From assembly GCA_012513515.1 (NCBI GenBank), contig JAAZCA010000029.1, positions 1 through 64,000 on the forward strand: a stretch of DNA of 64,000 bases. The letters run 5' to 3'. The notes below the pieces were generated by a model. It did no database searches. It had not been told where the DNA came from and was given only the letters and a program-made list of their open reading frames with translations. The stretch comes from Myxococcales bacterium. GTDB taxonomy: Bacteria; UBA10199; 2-02-FULL-44-16; JAAZCA01. Shown here one piece after another: positions 9,396-26,612 of this stretch (positions are counted from its first letter, which is position 1; the number at the start of each line of letters is the position of its first letter). Made by a program: the position numbers and the translations under genes.

Positions 9396-10100
9396 TCACT
9401 TCCCCTTTCCGAGAAATCCTATCTCGGCGTCGGATTGCCTGATGTAATTCGGAACGAGTTTCTTCAGATCATCCCCGCCGGAGGAAAGCCTCTCCGACGC
9501 GAGCACGGCAAGATTGTGGGCGTTGGGAAGAATGTCGTCCCCTTCGGCTATCTGAATCAGGTCGCCTAGGTCAACCGATAGGCGGTCGCGATAGGCGATC
9601 GCCCCGTCGCCGACCGCTAAAAAGGGAGATCCGAACTGGCGCAGCTTTGCGATGAGGGCTTCGGGGGGCAAGACGCATTCTGCGATAATTTCTTTGGGAG
9701 AGTTTCCAGCGGAAAGATCCCAAAGGGCGGCATAGATCTCGCCGCGCCTGGCATCTATGAGAGTCGCTACGACCTTAGATGGGGAAAGAGCCCCGTTTAA
9801 CGCCAGCGATTTTAGCGATGACACCCCCGCAATCGGAATTCCAAGCGAAAGCGCTATCCCTTTTGCCGCGGCAAGGCCGGTTCGAAGCCCCGTGAAGGAG
9901 CCCGGCCCTATCGCTACGGCAACCCCTTCGATATCGGATATCCCCCAACCGATTTCACCGAGCATGGAATCGAGCTTGCCGAAGAGCCTCTCGGAATGGC
10001 TGGAGGGGGCCTGTTGCCTGTCGAGGGCAACAAGAGTTGCTCCGTCTGACAGGGAGATCGATCCGCGCATCGATGTAGTGTCTATCGACAGTATCTTCAT
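9396..10100 (-). CDS. tsaB: tRNA threonylcarbamoyladenosine biosynthesis protein TsaB
   Basis: A 234-residue ASKHA-fold protein that partners TsaD in making t6A37 on ANN-decoding tRNAs. The N-terminal [10 protein letters not shown], the SHSERL block and the GPGSFTGLRTGLAAAKG motif (about residues 68-84) are diagnostic. It overlaps the last base of rseP and is followed by hutH, so it belongs to the tail of the rpsB-rseP cluster. Confidence 0.94.
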   Translation of the reverse strand: MKILSIDTTSMRGSISLSDGATLVALDRQQAPSSHSERLFGKLDSMLGEIGWGISDIEGVAVAIGPGSFTGLRTGLAAAKGIALSLGIPIAGVSSLKSLALNGALSPSKVVATLIDARRGEIYAALWDLSAGNSPKEIIAECVLPPEALIAKLRQFGSPFLAVGDGAIAYRDRLSVDLGDLIQIAEGDDILPNAHNLAVLASERLSSGGDDLKKLVPNYIRQSDAEIGFLGKGK

Positions 10101-13421: not shown

Positions 13422-14120
13422 TCAGGCGCTTTGGCCGCTCACCTTGCCAAACCTTCGTTCGCGGGCTTTGTAGGATTCTATCGCCCTGTCCAGTTCGGCC
13501 GAATCGAAATCAGGCCATAGCGCTTCGGTAAAATAAAGCTCAGAGTAAGCTATCTGCCAGAGAAGAAAATTGCTGACGCGAAACTCCCCGCTTGTTCTTA
13601 TCAGAAGATCGGGGTCGGGAATCCCGCGCGTGTCGAGCGCGGAGGTAAAATCCTCCTGCGTGACCTCCCCTTTTCCGCTCTTCAGCATGGCATTGACGGC
13701 GCGAAGGATCTCCTGCCTTCCTCCGTATGAAAGAGCTACGATCATCGTGATATCGGAACAGTGCGAGGTAAGCGCCTCCGTCTCCCTTATCTCACTACGA
13801 AGCTCGGCTGGCAGCCTCGCGATATCGCCTATCACACGAAAGCGGACTCCTTTTTCCACCATCCCCTTGCGCTTGCTGATCAGAAAATATCTCAAGAGCT
13901 GCATGAGAGCCAATATTTCATCGGAAGGACGCTGCCAGTTCTCGTCGGAAAATGCGTAGAGAGTTATATACTTCACACCCCGATTTTTGCAGTCCTCGAT
14001 CACGCCCTCTATGCGCTCGGCTCCCTTGCGATGCCCCTCGGAGCGCGAAAGGTCGTTCTCCGCAGCCCATCTTCCGTTTCCATCCATTATGATGGCTATG
14101 TGTTTAGGCGTTTTTGGCAT
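13422..14120 (-). CDS. uppS: Undecaprenyl diphosphate synthase
   Basis: A 232-residue cis-prenyltransferase that makes the C55 lipid carrier for peptidoglycan and O-antigen. Asp13 in IIMDGNGRWA binds Mg-diphosphate, and RTSGEFRVSNFLLWQIAYSE matches the substrate-binding block (usually RTSGE.RISNFLLWQ.AY.E). The length is slightly short but normal. The 295-base gap upstream, between it and frr, is filled by repeats, which is unusual for this operon. Confidence 0.96.
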   Translation of the reverse strand: MPKTPKHIAIIMDGNGRWAAENDLSRSEGHRKGAERIEGVIEDCKNRGVKYITLYAFSDENWQRPSDEILALMQLLRYFLISKRKGMVEKGVRFRVIGDIARLPAELRSEIRETEALTSHCSDITMIVALSYGGRQEILRAVNAMLKSGKGEVTQEDFTSALDTRGIPDPDLLIRTSGEFRVSNFLLWQIAYSELYFTEALWPDFDSAELDRAIESYKARERRFGKVSGQSA

Positions 14121-14415
14121 TTGGACCCTTAGTGGTTCGATCTTTTTCCGGGAACACGCACCGTTTGCGTCCCCAATTGGATACGGTTGAGGTTAAGGTT
14201 CCAGAAGCTAGAATCTAGAAGTGAGGAGCGTGATTTTCACGGTCGAGGTTTTTCTAGCTTCTGGCCTCTGCTTTGCCACTAGTTACGAGTCACCAGTCAC
14301 AGCTGTCTCACAAACTTGCTCCGTCTGACAGAATCTCCTGCTTTTTACAGTCACAAACTTGCTCCGTCTGACAGAATCTCCTGCTTTTTCCACCAGTTAC
14401 CAGTCACGACAGTAA
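14121..14415. repeat. Repeat-filled spacer between frr and uppS
   Basis: The spacer has three parts. First, 14144-14300 is a block of about 150 bases that recurs at 16717-16881 (tsf-rpsB spacer) with only scattered differences; it includes a GC-rich hairpin (about 14149-14175) and a perfect 12-base inverted repeat, CCAGAAGCTAGA at 14201-14212 with TCTAGCTTCTGG at 14253-14264. Second, two GCTCCGTCTGAC units at 14318-14329 and 14361-14372 each carry an AGAATCTCCTGCTTTTT tail. Third, CCAGTTACCAGTCAC runs lie up to the frr stop codon. No gene is present. Confidence 0.8.
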
Positions 14416-14973
14416 TCACACCGACATGATATCCTTTTCCTTATGGGTGACCGTCTCATCAACTTTCTTGATGAAGTCATCGGTGATCTTCTGAATCCTG
14501 TCGTATCCCGAACGCTCGTCGTCCTCGGTGATCTTCGAGTCCTTCTTGAGCCGTTTGAGCTCCTCGTTGGAATCGCGGCGCACGTTGCGGACTGCGACCT
14601 TGCAATCCTCAGCATGTTTTTTGACCAACTTGACCAGATCACGCCTGCGTTCCTCGTTGAGCGCCGGTATCGGAATACGGATTATCTTCCCATCGCTGAT
14701 GGGATTCAACCCGAGCCCCGACTTGAGGATCGCCTTCTCTATCGCCTGACCTGCGGAGGCGTCCCACGGCTGAATCGCTATCGTGCGCGCATCCGGAATT
14801 GAAAGCGAAGAGAGCTGGTTGAGCGGCGTCATCGTGCCGTAGTACTCGACACGGACTTCATCCACCAGCGAAAGAGAGGCGCGGCCGGTGCGCAGCCTCG
14901 CCAGCTCGTGGTGAAGAGCGTCCATCGCCCTGCTCATCTTTGCTTCGGTTTCCTTGAAAATTTTGTCATCCAT
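14416..14973 (-). CDS. frr: Ribosome recycling factor
   Basis: This 185-residue protein splits post-termination ribosomes together with EF-G. It has the typical start (KETEAKMSRAMDALHHELARLRTGRASLSLVDEV, family block about residues 7-41), IQPWDASAGQAIEKAI, and the long C-terminal helix with RDLVKLVKKHAEDCKVAVRNVRRD. It overlaps pyrH by 8 bases. Its final codons plus a few downstream bases (GTAATCACACCGACA) also appear at about 16957-16971 inside the tsf-rpsB spacer. Confidence 0.97.
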   Translation of the reverse strand: MDDKIFKETEAKMSRAMDALHHELARLRTGRASLSLVDEVRVEYYGTMTPLNQLSSLSIPDARTIAIQPWDASAGQAIEKAILKSGLGLNPISDGKIIRIPIPALNEERRRDLVKLVKKHAEDCKVAVRNVRRDSNEELKRLKKDSKITEDDERSGYDRIQKITDDFIKKVDETVTHKEKDIMSV

Positions 14974-15679
14974 AAACCACCGTCCCTATTTTTTCGCCCT
15001 TCACCACCTTCGCAAGGTTGCCGGACTTGAATATGTCGAAGACGATGATGGGGATGTTGTGATCCATGCACATCGAAACAGCGGTAGAATCCATAACTTT
15101 AAGCTGATTTTTCAGAACGTCTATGAATGAAACGGAATCGAAACGTTTCGCGGAAGGATCATTCTTCGGATCGGCGGAATAAACTCCGTCGACCTTGGTT
15201 CCCTTGAGAATAGCCTCTGCACCGACCTCGAGAGCTCGGAGAGATGCTGCGGTGTCGGTAGAAAAAAACGGCGAGCCCGTTCCTCCGCAGAAGATCAGGA
15301 CCCGCCCCTCCTTCATATCGCGTATCGCGCTGCGCCTGTCGAAGGAGTGAGCCACCCCTTCTATCGCGAGCGAACTCATCAGAACCGCGTCGAGCCCGGA
15401 ACCGATCATCACCTCTTGAAGAGCGAGACCGTTGATGACGGTAGCAAGCATCCCCATCCGGTCGGCTTGCGCCTGGCAGATCCCGCCCTCTTTTGCGATG
15501 GGGGCGCCGCGGAAGATATTTCCGCCGCCGATGACGATGCCGATCTCTACGCCGAGATCGATCGCGCTGCGAACCTCCGAAACGAGCTTTGCAGCGGCAT
15601 CGAGGGAAATCCCTTTTTCGACTCCCGGAGAGAGAAGAGCCTCACCGGAAAGTTTCAGGATGATTCTTCGGTATTTCAT
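14966..15679 (-). CDS. pyrH: UMP kinase
   Basis: This 237-residue amino acid kinase-fold enzyme phosphorylates UMP to UDP. It begins MKYRRIILKLSGEAL, with GGGNIFRG, GNP-like GGTGSPFFSTDTAA and KGTKVDGVYSADP blocks in order. The start at 15679 follows AAGGGGGAG; the longer in-frame start would run into the upstream repeat. It overlaps frr. The 5' side is separated from tsf by 103 bases of repeat. Confidence 0.97.
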   Translation of the reverse strand: MKYRRIILKLSGEALLSPGVEKGISLDAAAKLVSEVRSAIDLGVEIGIVIGGGNIFRGAPIAKEGGICQAQADRMGMLATVINGLALQEVMIGSGLDAVLMSSLAIEGVAHSFDRRSAIRDMKEGRVLIFCGGTGSPFFSTDTAASLRALEVGAEAILKGTKVDGVYSADPKNDPSAKRFDSVSFIDVLKNQLKVMDSTAVSMCMDHNIPIIVFDIFKSGNLAKVVKGEKIGTVVYG

Positions 15680-15782
15680 GCTCTCCCCCTTACCAGTCAC
15701 AAAAACTTGCTCCGTCTGACAAAATCTTCCGCTTTTTCCACCAGTTACCAGTCACGAGTCGCTAGTCAACGGTCACGGCTTT
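15680..15782. repeat. Short repeat-filled spacer between tsf and pyrH
   Basis: One GCTCCGTCTGAC unit lies at 15709-15720 with its AAAATCTTCCGCTTTTT tail. It is followed by CCACCAGTTACCAGTCAC and degenerate GAGTC/TAGTCAACGGTCAC copies ending next to the tsf stop. Confidence 0.75.
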
Positions 15783-16652
15783 TCAGTCTTTTCTCTTCTC
15801 AATCCCTTCCCCTACCTGGAACCTCACGAATGAATCGATCGTGATGGCCGAATCTATCTTCTTAAGCCAGCCCCCTACCGAGGACTTGCCGTCCGGGTCG
15901 CGGACATAGACCTGCTCACTCAGACAGATCTCGGTATAAAATTTGTTGATCTTTCCGCCGAGGATCTTCTCGAGTATCTCAGCCGGCTTTTTCGTCTCAC
16001 CCATCTGCGCCAGCATTATTTCCTTTTCCTTGGCGATCACCGACTCCGGAACGTCGCTCTTATTGACGTACTGCGGATGCATCGCAGCGACGTGCATTGC
16101 AACTTCCCTGCCGGTCGTGTCATCGAGCTTTGCGTTTGGATCGTTGTAAACCACCACGACGCCGATCTTGGATCCGGCGTGTATGTATTGCGCGAGTTTT
16201 TTTCCTGCGCCGATCTCTACGCGGGCAAAGCGCCTGGCATTGATATTCTCGCCGATCTTGGCAACGACATCGGTCTGGATATCCTTCACGCTCTTGCCAT
16301 CAACTGTAGTCGCAAGAAGCCCATCGAGATCGGCCGGATTCCTGTCGCGAACTATTTCCGTTACCCTTGAAACATAGCCGCGGAAGTCTTCGGTCTTGGT
16401 GACGAAGTCGGTTTCACAGTTGACCTCCACCAGAGTCGCGACTTTGCCATCGGCGGAGATATCGTGTCCGATGAGGCCGTCGGCTGCGACGCGCACGGAC
16501 TTCTTCTCGGCGGTAGCGACTCCTTTTTTGCGCAGAGACTCTATCGCGGCTTCCATATCCCCATTGGATTCGGAAAGAGCCCTTTTGCAGTCCATCATTC
16601 CGGCGCCGGTTTTCTCCCTCAACTCTTTAACTATCTCTGATGATATCGTCAT
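15783..16652 (-). CDS. tsf: Translation elongation factor Ts
   Basis: The 289-residue GDP-exchange factor for EF-Tu. The N-terminal UBA-like domain contains KELREKTGAGMMDCKRAL, and VEVNCETDFVTK and HVAAMHPQYV mark the two core domains. The start at 16652 follows AAAGGAAAA; a longer in-frame ATG start 11 codons upstream is less likely. It is normally cotranscribed with rpsB, but 376 bases of mostly repeat sequence separate the two here. Confidence 0.97.
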   Translation of the reverse strand: MTISSEIVKELREKTGAGMMDCKRALSESNGDMEAAIESLRKKGVATAEKKSVRVAADGLIGHDISADGKVATLVEVNCETDFVTKTEDFRGYVSRVTEIVRDRNPADLDGLLATTVDGKSVKDIQTDVVAKIGENINARRFARVEIGAGKKLAQYIHAGSKIGVVVVYNDPNAKLDDTTGREVAMHVAAMHPQYVNKSDVPESVIAKEKEIMLAQMGETKKPAEILEKILGGKINKFYTEICLSEQVYVRDPDGKSSVGGWLKKIDSAITIDSFVRFQVGEGIEKRKD

Positions 16653-17028
16653 TATTGTTTTCCTTTCCGGGAGAGGCCTGCTCAATCACTCCCAAAGTAA
16701 ATTTATTATGTCGTTTCTTTTCCGGAAACACGCACCGTTTGTGTCCCCAATTGGATACGGTTGAGGTTAAGGTTCCAGAAGCTAGAATCTAGAAGTGAGA
16801 AGCGTGATTTCCACGGTCGAGGTTTTTCTAGCTTCTAACCTCTCGCATCTGGCCTCTGTTTTTTCACCAGTTACGAGTCACGGTAACTCTTGCTCCGTCT
16901 GACAAAATCTTCCGATTTTTCCAGCAGTTACCAGTCACGAGTCAGCAGTCACGGCAGTAATCACACCGACACAAACTTGCTCCGTCTGACAGGATCTCCT
17001 GTTTTTTCCAGCAGTTACCAGTCGCCAT
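16653..17028. repeat. Repeat-filled spacer between rpsB and tsf
   Basis: It contains the second copy (about 16717-16881) of the block found upstream of uppS, GCTCCGTCTGAC units at 16892-16903 and 16979-16990 with their TCTTCC/TCTCCTG-TTTTT tails, and repeated CAGTTACCAGTCAC strings. At about 16955-16971 lies CAGTAATCACACCGACA, identical to the 3' end of frr and its flank. Apart from the short tsf ribosome-binding region, no other function is visible. Confidence 0.8.
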
Positions 17029-17934
17029 TCACGGATTCTGATCGCTGCCAGCTTCGGTGGTCTCTTCGACCTTCACCTTGGCAAATTGTTCCGCATCAGC
17101 ATCGCTCGCCGCCTCAGCAGTGGCGCCCCGCGCTACCCATGCACGCCCTCTGCCTGTGATCTTTTTCTCGCGTATCGCCGGACCTTTGAATTTCTGTTCC
17201 TTCGCCTGCTCGGCTGCCTGAGCCTCCTGCTCGCGCAGGGAGATCTCACGCCTCCTGTTTCCATCTTCGCAGGCATCGGCGATTATCTTCGAAAAATACT
17301 GTATGGAGCGAATCGCGTCGTCATTGCCGGGGATGATATAATCGATCCCCTCAGGGTCGCTGTTGGTATCGATGAGCGCTATCACGGGGATGCCGAGCTT
17401 GTTCGCCTCTTTTTTAGCGATTATCTCGCTGCTCGGGTCGATCAGAAAAACCGCGCCGGGAATCTTCTTCATCATCTTGATTCCGCCGAGGGAGAATTCG
17501 AGCTTTTCGATCTCGCGTTCGATCTGGAGGGCTTCCTTCTTGGTCAATTTCTCGAGCTCGCCCTTCTCGCGCTTCTCGACGAGATCGTTGAGGCGGTCGA
17601 TGGACTGCCGGATCGTGCGGAAGTTGGTGAGCATCCCGCCCAGCCAGCGGTTGGAGACGTAGAACTGCCCGACCCTCTTGGCTTCGGACTCGACGACATC
17701 CTTGGCCTGCTTTTTCGTTCCGACGAAGAGGATGCTGTTGCCAAGCGCGACCGTATCGGCGACGAACTTGTAGGCATCGCGTGCCAGAGAGGCCGTCTGA
17801 TCGAGATCGATGATGTGGATCCCATCCCTTGCGGCGAAGATGTATGGACGCATCTTCGGATTCCAGCGGCGGGTCTGATGTCCGAAATGGACGCCCGCTT
17901 CCAGCATGTCTTTCACCTGCACTTCAACTGTCAT
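17029..17934 (-). CDS. rpsB: 30S ribosomal protein S2
   Basis: A 301-residue S2 with the classic MLEAGVHFGHQTRRWNPKM start, FVGTKKQAKD, RWLGGMLTNF and PVIALIDTNSDPEGIDYIIPGNDDA blocks. It is longer than the usual 240-260 residues because of a C-terminal extension (about residues 240-301) rich in charged residues and Ala/Glu, with RGRAWVARGATAEA. The start codon has AAAGGAG six bases upstream, and that element is predicted to pair within the leader. It is the first gene of the leftward cluster. Confidence 0.97.
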   Translation of the reverse strand: MTVEVQVKDMLEAGVHFGHQTRRWNPKMRPYIFAARDGIHIIDLDQTASLARDAYKFVADTVALGNSILFVGTKKQAKDVVESEAKRVGQFYVSNRWLGGMLTNFRTIRQSIDRLNDLVEKREKGELEKLTKKEALQIEREIEKLEFSLGGIKMMKKIPGAVFLIDPSSEIIAKKEANKLGIPVIALIDTNSDPEGIDYIIPGNDDAIRSIQYFSKIIADACEDGNRRREISLREQEAQAAEQAKEQKFKGPAIREKKITGRGRAWVARGATAEAASDADAEQFAKVKVEETTEAGSDQNP

Positions 17935-18020: not shown

Positions 18021-18334
18021 TTTGGGATTTTGGCCTTTTCAATGAGCTCTCTACTACAAAGCTCGGAAAGTCGCGCTGGACTATCACGTAACTGGTTAAT
18101 ACGCAATAGAAATATGTCCATTTGTTGTACCCAAGTGAACTTGTCAGGGTAATTGACCACGTGATTATGTCAGGGTCATGAAAAGGCAAAGGTGACAGGT
18201 GTTTTCTATCAGACGGAGCAAATTAATATCCTGTGTAACATCCTGTGATATCATTATTTTTTCTTTCCTCCGTCTGACGCAAAAACTTGCTCCGTCTGAC
18301 AAAAACTTTCTGACAAAAACTTCTCCCTCTCTCT
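18021..18334. other. Divergent spacer between rpsB leader and TPR gene
   Basis: The left part should carry the rpsB promoter, which I could not place with confidence. The right part contains CTCCGTCTGAC units at 18268-18278 and 18289-18300 (rightward) and a reversed, one-mismatch copy near 18209-18220. A degenerate TTTCTGACAAAAAC copy lies at about 18307. No gene is supported. Confidence 0.6.
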
Positions 18335-19338: not shown

Positions 19339-19668
19339 GCAGATCAACTTAACCTTACCCTCAGCCTTAACCTGTTTTTTCACAAAAACTTGCTCCGTCT
19401 GACAAAATCTCCCGCTTTTTCCACCAGTTCCATCAGTTCCAGCCACGGCAGAAGTACTTTCCTCCGTCTGACGCAAAATCCTCCTCCGTCTGCCACCAGC
19501 CACCAGCCACGGCAGTAAACACGGCAGTAAAAAAGAACCCCGGGGAGCTTTCGCCACGCCCGGGGCCTTTGGGGGAGCTATTTAAACTTCCTAACCCTCT
19601 ACCTCCCGTCCAGCCTTCCTTATATGGAGGTCTCACGCGAGACCATCCTCCCTAATCCCGTCCTTTTC
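19339..19668. repeat. Convergent spacer with dispersed repeats and a terminator
   Basis: After the TPR stop come CTTAACCTTACCCTCAG and CAGCCTTAACCTGTTTTTT. Then come a GCTCCGTCTGAC unit at 19392-19403 with its AAAATCTCCCGCTTTTT tail, further CTCCGTCTGAC copies at 19462-19472 and (CTCCGTCTGCC) about 19484, and CAGCCACGGCAGTAA strings. The leftward terminator of the TSP3 gene is at 19527-19566. The remainder up to 19668 shows nothing. Confidence 0.7.
19527..19566 (-). terminator. Intrinsic terminator of the large TSP3 gene
   Basis: Read leftward, CCCCGGG and CCCGGGG arms (19564-19537) enclose GCGTGGCGAAAGCTC and are followed by TTCTTTTTT. The stem is strong and the T-run is on the correct side for the leftward gene ending at 19669. 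Confidence 0.75.
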
Positions 19669-24887: not shown

Positions 24888-25411
24888 ATCTTCCTCCTTT
24901 GAATTCCCCCAAGAATAGTTTAAAAGCTCTAAAGACTCTTCTCCGTATCCTTCCATCTTCATTATCGGAGGAGTTTGAAAAAAGTTGCGGCATTTCTACC
25001 AACTATTTCCCCCCCACGTCAGACGGAGCAAAAATCCCCTAGTTTGCCCCCAGAATCGGAGTCGCCCCCTCGCCGACATGTCAAGCGAACTAATTGATTT
25101 TTAAGGTGTTTTTTCGGCACACCCCTCCCCCTTTCGTCAGACGGAGCAGGGGTTTCGTCAGGCGGAGGACGCTTCGTCCTTCGTCCTTTCGTCAGACGGA
25201 GCAAAAAGCCTTAACTGGTATTTGTCAGACGGATCAGCAGACGGAGCAGAATCGACCAGATACAGATATATAATGTAGTGTGTAGTGGAGCATAATCGGC
25301 CAGATGTAGTGAAATCATACATCTCACTGTCGCAGCTTTTCAGCTAAACCATCCCTGCGTGCATTTTATCCCATAATACCAGTGGCATGATGCTTGCTCT
25401 CGTCAGCCAGC
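24888..25411. repeat. Left flank of RAYT: reversed REP-like repeat cluster
   Basis: GTCAGACGGAGC (the leftward form of the dispersed repeat) is exact at 25018-25029, 25136-25147 and 25191-25202. Variants lie at about 25155 (GTCAGGCGGAG), 25224 and 25238. Two AATCGACCAGATACAG / AATCGGCCAGATGTAG direct repeats follow at about 25251-25305. The remainder up to the RAYT start shows no further gene. Confidence 0.75.
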
Positions 25412-26125
25412 ATGGCTTATTTGCCTAGATACGAAATCATCTACGACAACGCTTTCTTCCACGTCACCTGGCAGTGCCACAACAAAGACTGGCTCATGCG
25501 GTGGGAATGGGCAAAACGAGCATACTACGACCTCCTCCTGAAATATAAGGACCGATATGGAGTCAAAATTCACTCATATAACTTTATGGATAACCACCCG
25601 CATATCGCCGGACATCTCGAGAATAAGGAACAATTTTCCGCGTTCTTTCGTCTCGTAAACAGCCGCTTTGCCAAAATAGTGAATAAAAGGCTTTCGAGGC
25701 GTGGGCAGGTCGTCATGGACCGTTTTAAATCTCCTGTCATAGAATCGGACAGTCAGATGCTCACAGTGATGGCATACATCGATCTGAATCAGCATAGAGT
25801 AAAAAAGGTGAAGGATCCAAAAGACAACGAGTGGTCTTCTTACAGATATTATGCATATGGAAAAGAGGATCCGCTGATAACGCCTTCTCCCTCATATCTC
25901 GCATTAAGCGAGGATCCCATGGAAAGACGGCGTGAATATCTCGCCATCGTCAAATCGCTGATAGAACACCGTAAGCAGCTGAACATCTCCCATACGCACT
26001 TCATAGGAAATCCGGAATGGGTGTTTAAAAAATACCGTGAACTGTGCACGCGGCTCGGTCGCCAGATAAACGAGGTAATGTTTCTGAGACTTACAAGTCC
26101 GCCCGAGTTAGAGTTACAAGAATAG
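25412..26125 (+). CDS. REP-associated tyrosine transposase (RAYT, Y1/IS200-like)
   Basis: A 237-residue member of the Y1 transposase superfamily. The HUH metal-binding motif is NHPH (His62 and His64) preceded by the usual SYNFMDN. The catalytic tyrosine is Tyr122 in VMAYIDLNQHRVKKVKDP, and WSSYRYYAYG follows as in the family. RAYTs are single-copy domesticated relatives of IS200/IS605 transposases that are linked to REP palindromes. Clusters of one repeat family sit on both sides in opposite orientation, which fits. The start is uncertain: 25412 gives the conserved MAYLPRY, and 25394 is the alternative. No clear Shine-Dalgarno is visible. Confidence 0.88.
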   Translation: MAYLPRYEIIYDNAFFHVTWQCHNKDWLMRWEWAKRAYYDLLLKYKDRYGVKIHSYNFMDNHPHIAGHLENKEQFSAFFRLVNSRFAKIVNKRLSRRGQVVMDRFKSPVIESDSQMLTVMAYIDLNQHRVKKVKDPKDNEWSSYRYYAYGKEDPLITPSPSYLALSEDPMERRREYLAIVKSLIEHRKQLNISHTHFIGNPEWVFKKYRELCTRLGRQINEVMFLRLTSPPELELQE

Positions 26126-26340
26126 AAGAAATCAAAAATTATTTTATCCTGAAACCCTTAATCGAAAAAGATGCGCGGTGCTTTATCCAAAATGGATCAT
26201 CGCTGATCATTTTGGACTGCAAACTACATATTGAACAATCCGCTAACTGAACGATCTATTGAAAATCATTCTTTTGAGGATGCCAGGGAGTCCCACTCAT
26301 GGATTTGGCAGAGATCATGGAGGCTCTTAACTTAGCCTAA
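26126..26340. other. Spacer between RAYT and repeat array
   Basis: Nothing gene-like stands out. A short hairpin-like segment ATGGATCATCGCTGATCATTTTGG (positions about 26189-26212, with GATCATCG/CGCTGATC pairing in part) is the only structure I see. Short open frames here are not supported. Confidence 0.35.
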
Positions 26341-26612
26341 CGCAATTCTGCTCCGTCTGACGGTGTTGCCTAACGCAATTCTGCTCCGTCTGACGGTGTT
26401 TGTGTTTGTGCTCCGTTTCTCCGTCTGACGGTGTTATGGCTCCGTCTGACGGTGTTTATTTCTCCGTCTGACGGTGTTATGCTCCGTCTGACGGTGTTGC
26501 CTAACGCAATTCTGCTCCGTCTGACGGTGTTTTGCTCCGTCTGACGGTGTTCGTCTGACGGTGTTTATTGTGACGTCTGTGCTCCGTTTGACGGTGGGGT
26601 TTGACGGTGGGG
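26341..26612 (+). repeat. Irregular array of CCGTCTGACGG units next to RAYT
   Basis: Nine exact CGTCTGACGGTGTT copies start at 26354, 26387, 26422, 26443, 26465, 26485, 26518, 26538 and 26552. Two decayed TTTGACGGTGGGG copies follow, up to 26612. Three copies share the longer GCCTAACGCAATTCTG prefix. The core CCGTC-T-GACGG is a near-perfect dyad. Spacing is irregular (13-35 bases between starts). The array abuts the 3' end of rmuC. Confidence 0.9.

Follow-up and report, generated by a model that had tools for sequence, protein, structure and literature searches.

A Y1 transposase gene bracketed by inverted CTYCGTCW motifs is probably a compact mobile element with sigma-54-gated expression

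Known Y1 enzymes bind hairpins. In the E. coli enzyme of the GTAG-type REP/RAYT system, W94, Q95, E100, H101, and R104 contact GTAG (PMC6006769). The same survey (Quentin 2018) lists hydrophobic residues for the middle position of HUH in Y1 class 2 and describes a TnpA-Y1 subclass 2.1 of proteins of ~238 aa with a C-terminal HTH-like domain, beside whose genes no repeats were found. Non-GTAG systems include the TIRYT or TIRtron elements, of which some TIRYTs, but not all, carry GGGGWSAS (Di Nocera 2013, PMC3733652), and the latter study also describes CGTC-tagged REPs, which consist of CGTC, an 8-9 bp stem, a 4-5 nt loop, and a CCA tail and have no associated transposase.

The window analyzed here, a DNA stretch of 64,000 nucleotides, contains on its + strand a gene (25412-26125) with an ATG start that encodes a Y1 HUH/tyrosine transposase of 237 aa. 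The window protein scores above the cut-off of Pfam PF01797 (Y1_Tnp), and from its alignment the catalytic residues are the H62-P-H64 pair and Y122; H62, H64, and Y122 are invariant across the clade in an alignment of 23 sequences. The middle HUH residue is proline (H-P-H) in most aligned clade members and falls outside the class 2 list. When solved structures were searched by sequence, with the window protein or the alignment as query, nothing meaningful was recovered. A predicted model of the protein (pLDDT 84) was used in a fold search, and the best structural match to this model was TnpA-REP 4er8, a structure solved with REP DNA bound, followed by the IS200 and IS608 transposases. The C-terminus is helical in the predicted model, and Pfam gave no HTH match in the window protein. 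The clade may belong to subclass 2.1.

The original prediction had named the gene a RAYT and its repeat a REP-like sequence unlike the GTAG type. The repeat indeed lacks any GTAG signature. The name RAYT in the strict GTAG sense is not upheld, as the NCBIfam equivalog REP_Tyr_transpos gives 37-45 bits, far below its cut-off of 80, and as V, M, S, P, and E occupy the five positions that contact GTAG in E. coli, so that all five residues are replaced (positions aligned by hand, 4er8 sequence against the 23-sequence clade alignment).

Inspection of the flanks of the gene revealed 4-6 copies of the motif GCTCCGTCTGAC facing left on its left side and 8-10 copies facing right on its right side, all with 0-2 mismatches. 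The left cluster (25018-25247, - strand) comprises matches at 25018-25029, 25136-25147, 25157-25168 (2 mismatches), 25191-25202, and 25224-25235, and a partial innermost copy at 25236-25247. The right cluster (26350-26611, + strand), in which copies start at 26350 (26350-26361, the innermost), 26383, 26418, 26439, 26461, 26481, 26514, 26534, and 26581, is an irregular tandem array of ~20-nt units TGCTCCGTCTGACGGTGTT. Both clusters are directed away from the gene, and the predicted inverted arrangement of repeats around it is thus borne out: allowing up to 2 mismatches, GCTCCGTCTGAC has 29 matches in the window against 5.5 +/- 2.3 in shuffles (largest shuffle 11). The near-palindrome CCGTCTGACGG has 60 matches in the window against 18 +/- 5. 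The near-perfect dyad core CCGTC-T-GACGG that had been proposed for the repeat holds for one part of the locus only, because the perfect dyad occurs exclusively in the right-hand array (26353-26547), whereas in the left cluster and in almost all dispersed copies CTCCGTCTGAC is retained and the last GG is missing. For this reason the asymmetric GCTCCGTCTGAC is regarded as the conserved unit.

As single-stranded DNA the right array folds strongly (z -9.8), mostly by pairing between neighboring units, whereas the left cluster folds no better than shuffles (z -0.7). Among 25 clade loci, a dyad upstream of the ATG reaches significance for the group (Fisher p 0.002) and individually in 7 loci, 4 of which are paralogues, and where it is individually significant it lies ~76-114 nt from the ATG; no subterminal hairpins were detected at the right ends of the clade loci (p 0.21). 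As the left dyad is significant in few loci and the right ends are null, a REP-type hairpin is not the defining feature of these repeats, and the REP hairpin was dropped as their general unit after these tests. What is conserved is only CTYCGTCW, which behaves as the outer boundary of the element, and the REP-like palindrome of the original prediction is not supported as the unit.

These data bear on the possibility that the locus is a true REP/RAYT system, in which an immobile, domesticated RAYT would multiply a hairpin-forming REP. Such a system would account for the near-palindrome and strong folding of the right array, for inverted flanking clusters accompanied by dispersed intergenic copies and pairs of a cognate repeat, and for an HUH/Y1 fold whose predicted model is nearest to TnpA-REP. 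However, the palindrome is missing from the dispersed copies and from the weakly folding left cluster, there is neither a GTAG/GTGG foot with a general hairpin nor a set of GTAG-contact residues, and, as described below, the motif coincides with a sequence boundary and genomes hold several diverged gene copies, up to five each. We therefore consider a true REP/RAYT system unlikely.

The same genome possesses on another contig a second gene copy, 84% identical and bracketed by inverted motifs in a similar way. Of 46 class genomes surveyed, 14, that of the window among them, encode close relatives (at least 47% identical), often in 2-5 copies each, and a few further class genomes contain gene fragments at contig ends. 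Most relatives with names come from MAGs under the label Deltaproteobacteria, one of them with 'UBA10199' in its isolate name; another is labelled Bacteriovoracaceae, and its locus has ends as in the rest of the clade and no sigma-54 match. For the 25 loci with readable flanks, searched with the slightly wider pattern [CG][CT][CT]CGTC[TA], outward-facing CTYCGTCW was found on the left flank in 24 and on the right flank in 20, and inward-facing motifs in 4 left and 1 right flanks. The outward motifs lie 60-260 nt before the ATG on the left and 100-400 nt past the stop codon on the right. The layout of a cognate transposase-repeat pair, claimed originally from one locus, therefore recurs at a second locus of the genome and at about 25 loci in at least 14 genomes.

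In genome G029, the readable left flanks of four paralogues are similar up to CCTTCGTCTT and unrelated past it. Since identity stops exactly at the motif, the motif is taken as the end of the element in this multi-copy genome. It changes by lineage, with the forms CGTCTGAC, CGTCTTG, CGTCTGG, CGTCAT, and CGTCAC, and several loci carry arrays extending outward from it, such as one with seven TAATTTCGAACCTTCGTCT units. At locus L127 (G033:C25:6394-6435) a perfect 42-bp palindrome was observed, both ends of which are the outward motif (AGACGGAGCAATTCCTAGCACGTGCTAGGAATTGCTCCGTCT). In favor of mobility, neither element nor motif was found next to rmuC, the gene adjoining the window copy, in three other family genera within the flanks fetched. 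An insertion or excision event was not directly seen, nor was an exact empty site recovered, and the paralogues are diverged (84% identity within the genome), which gives no sign of recent mobility.

Taken together, the locus is probably a compact mobile element of ~1.1 kb with a Y1 HUH/tyrosine transposase, inverted CTYCGTCW ends, and sigma-54-gated expression. By the boundary logic of the related loci, the body of the window copy would extend on the + strand from the innermost left motif, the likely left end (25236-25247), to the innermost right motif, the likely right end (26350-26361), thus over 25236-26361 or ~1.13 kb. Its outer ends would be inverted copies of CTYCGTCW, in the form of GCTCCGTCTGAC in the family of the window, and the transposase would most likely recognize and cut single-stranded DNA at or beside this motif. 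Occasional cutting and rejoining of ends may then give rise to outward-growing tandem arrays, to solo ends, and to gene-less outward pairs between genes.

Copies of the motif are not confined to the element. In the 1.79-Mb genome, 35 exact copies of CTCCGTCTGAC were counted against 0 for the reversed control, so that a full-genome search agrees with the original prediction of a dispersed repeat. Its further claim that the repeat has spread from this locus stands only as far as copies elsewhere are concerned, since the second gene copy is an equally possible source. In the window, + strand copies are located at 14318-14329 and 14361-14372 (between genes 13422-14120 and 14416-14973), at 15709-15720 (between genes 14966-15700 and 15783-16685), at 16892-16903 and 16979-16990 (between genes 15783-16685 and 17029-17934), and at 19392-19403, 19461-19472, and, in degenerate form, 19483-19494. 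An outward-facing set without transposase occupies 18208-18300, with copies at 18208-18219 (-), 18267-18278 (+), and 18289-18300 (+). The copy at 10039-10050 is located within a coding sequence and could be fortuitous. Between 14270 and 19500 several motif copies form part of a composite intergenic repeat of ~55 nt (CACAAACTTG-CTCCGTCTGAC-ARAATCTTCCGCTTTTTCCACCAGTTACCAGTCACGA) in a single orientation, and the neighboring genes resemble uppS, frr, pyrH, tsf, and rpsB, as judged from their proteins read by eye.

Comparison of four family genomes gave 36, 30, and 14 copies of GCTCCGTCTGA in those three that carry the gene and 0 in the fourth, which lacks it, and the repeat is therefore not equally abundant in the family relative that lacks the transposase, in agreement with the pairing originally proposed. 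Outward pairs lacking a gene (AGACGGAG...CTCCGTCT), whose middles are unrelated, were found in five genomes, compared to 0-1 in controls. One of the five is G002, a family genome without a detected gene, which has one pair, and a gene-less pair is thus no absolute marker. Because the looser variant CTYCGTCTTSW shows a high background, and enrichment also in some genomes where no clade gene was detected, the claim that repeat and gene co-occur is restricted to GCTCCGTCTGA and to the family of the window. An excess of this variant without a detected close transposase was noted in G014 (56 versus 12 in controls) and G018 (31 versus 4) and may be due to a lost gene, a divergent gene, or coding bias.

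The arrays might also be ordinary tandem repeats formed by replication slippage next to an old transposase gene, and the dispersed copies might have nothing to do with the enzyme and serve in regulation or protein binding. The irregular unit lengths of the right array and the several window copies that belong to a composite intergenic repeat in a cluster of translation genes are compatible with such an origin; the motif, however, brackets diverged relatives in many genomes, is fixed in the outward orientation, changes with the lineage of the gene, and has a count of 0 in the family genome without the gene. This alternative is very unlikely in our judgment, and the growth of the arrays would rather be due to the enzyme of the mobile element.

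A feature that had been missed in the original prediction is a predicted sigma-54 (-24/-12) promoter, TGGCATGATGCTTGCT, at 25383-25398 on the + strand, which matches exactly the consensus used (TGGCAYR-N4-TTGCW). By the usual -12 rule, transcription is predicted to start at about 25409, only 3 nt upstream of the ATG. Of the 28 clade loci, 25 have the consensus with up to 1 mismatch and 27 with up to 2; in 24 of the 25 the site ends 12-16 nt ahead of the ATG, and the remaining one ends 24 nt before the start codon as annotated. Other short Y1 genes read (190-256 aa) also display a sigma-54 site in 26 of 31 cases, 22 of them at 10-16 nt from the start codon, and none of the 16 long Y1 genes of the class (~290-345 aa) has one (fragments excluded from both counts). 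The genome contains rpoN (G000:C4) and 10 perfect sigma-54 sites compared to 0 in the control, several of the others being located 13-31 nt before predicted starts of genes for surface-type proteins. The close apposition of promoter and ATG suggests that the mRNA would be nearly leaderless and that the gene would be silent unless a sigma-54 activator is working.

The short Y1 families bearing sigma-54 sites have end repeats different from those of the clade, for example GGTACC or GTGCCTGGCAC. Short families with their own inverted flank repeats, of the GGTACC, GTGCCTGGCAC, and GTGTCCCCGG types (loci L048, L134-L146, L150, L168, and L169), mostly show this promoter at their start codon as well. 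For a related Y1 subfamily from genomes of other phyla, outside the class (loci L175-L203), 18 of 28 loci carry TTGAC 34-38 nt upstream of the ATG, with a background of 4%. This spacing predicts a start at the ATG and thus leaderless sigma-70 transcripts. Judged from an out-of-class sample that is a single subfamily, it looks as if leaderless expression is the older condition and sigma-54 a switch made in this class. A strict pattern of promoter plus start codon, too narrow for a census, gave 2 matches over 385 genomes, both upstream of Y1 genes.

As TGGCA-N6-TTGC, recognized by its consensus, is located inside the element, this sequence could instead be a site to which the transposase or a repressor binds, which would be compatible with the proposed mobile element. 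Against such a binding site stand the full -24/-12 consensus and its conserved spacing, which are common to Y1 families that differ in their end repeats and whose proteins share only 25-35% identity, the sigma-70 -35 box at equivalent spacing in related genes of other phyla, and the perfect sites before surface-type protein starts. A binding site in place of the promoter is distinctly improbable, and a sigma-54 promoter is the preferred reading. In the papers searched we found no report of sigma-54-driven Y1 transposases; one sigma-54 regulon survey names other transposase COGs, with caution, and a Geobacter RpoN paper mentions no transposase.

Among the described systems, the element resembles the TIRYT type more than a GTAG RAYT: it has a Y1 transposase of similar size (~238 aa in TIRYTs) with a Y-x-x-L-N motif, inverted non-GTAG repeats flanking the gene, and repeats elsewhere as dimers or clusters. 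Membership is incomplete, because the repeats are short and GGGGWSAS is absent. In place of long terminal inverted repeats, only ~8-17 bp are inverted at the ends, which are CTYCGTCW; the HUH motif is mostly H-P-H in the clade, V takes the place of W in the W motif, and the predicted sigma-54 promoter at the ATG may set the element apart. CGTC-tagged REPs share the invariant CGTC core, but by inspection the sequences found here have neither a stem of 8-9 bp that begins with AT behind CGTC nor the CCA tail, and the CGTC-REP superfamily was rejected on structure. Like IS200/IS605, the locus combines a Y1 transposase with a small element and a possible left subterminal dyad. In contrast to IS200/IS605, it has one motif inverted at both ends instead of different left and right cleavage sites and lacks a right hairpin, while no near-identical copies were found and no tnpB was noticed in the flanks read. 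Ends of the IS200/IS605 type were rejected, as subterminal hairpins at both ends are not a property of the clade (left in 7 of 25 loci, right p 0.21).

The element extends the known transposase-repeat pairs by one whose recognition sequence is unlike GTAG, and as motif and enzyme change together across the class, the recognition code is testable. If the clade belongs to subclass 2.1, for which Quentin et al. (PMC6006769) had found no repeats, the pair helps to fill this gap. We regard as an evenly balanced proposition the wider generalization that most short Y1 transposases of the class, including families only 25-35% identical with different ends, would be expressed from sigma-54-dependent leaderless mRNAs, with transposition gated by activators, that a related subfamily elsewhere would use leaderless sigma-70 transcripts, and that the CTYCGTCW ends would represent a new pairing with a non-GTAG recognition code. 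That several diverged Y1 families carry a sigma-54 promoter directly next to the start codon suggests that their elements require physiological activators for transposition and, if this is true, sigma-54 activators would constitute a host-level gate on single-strand transposition.
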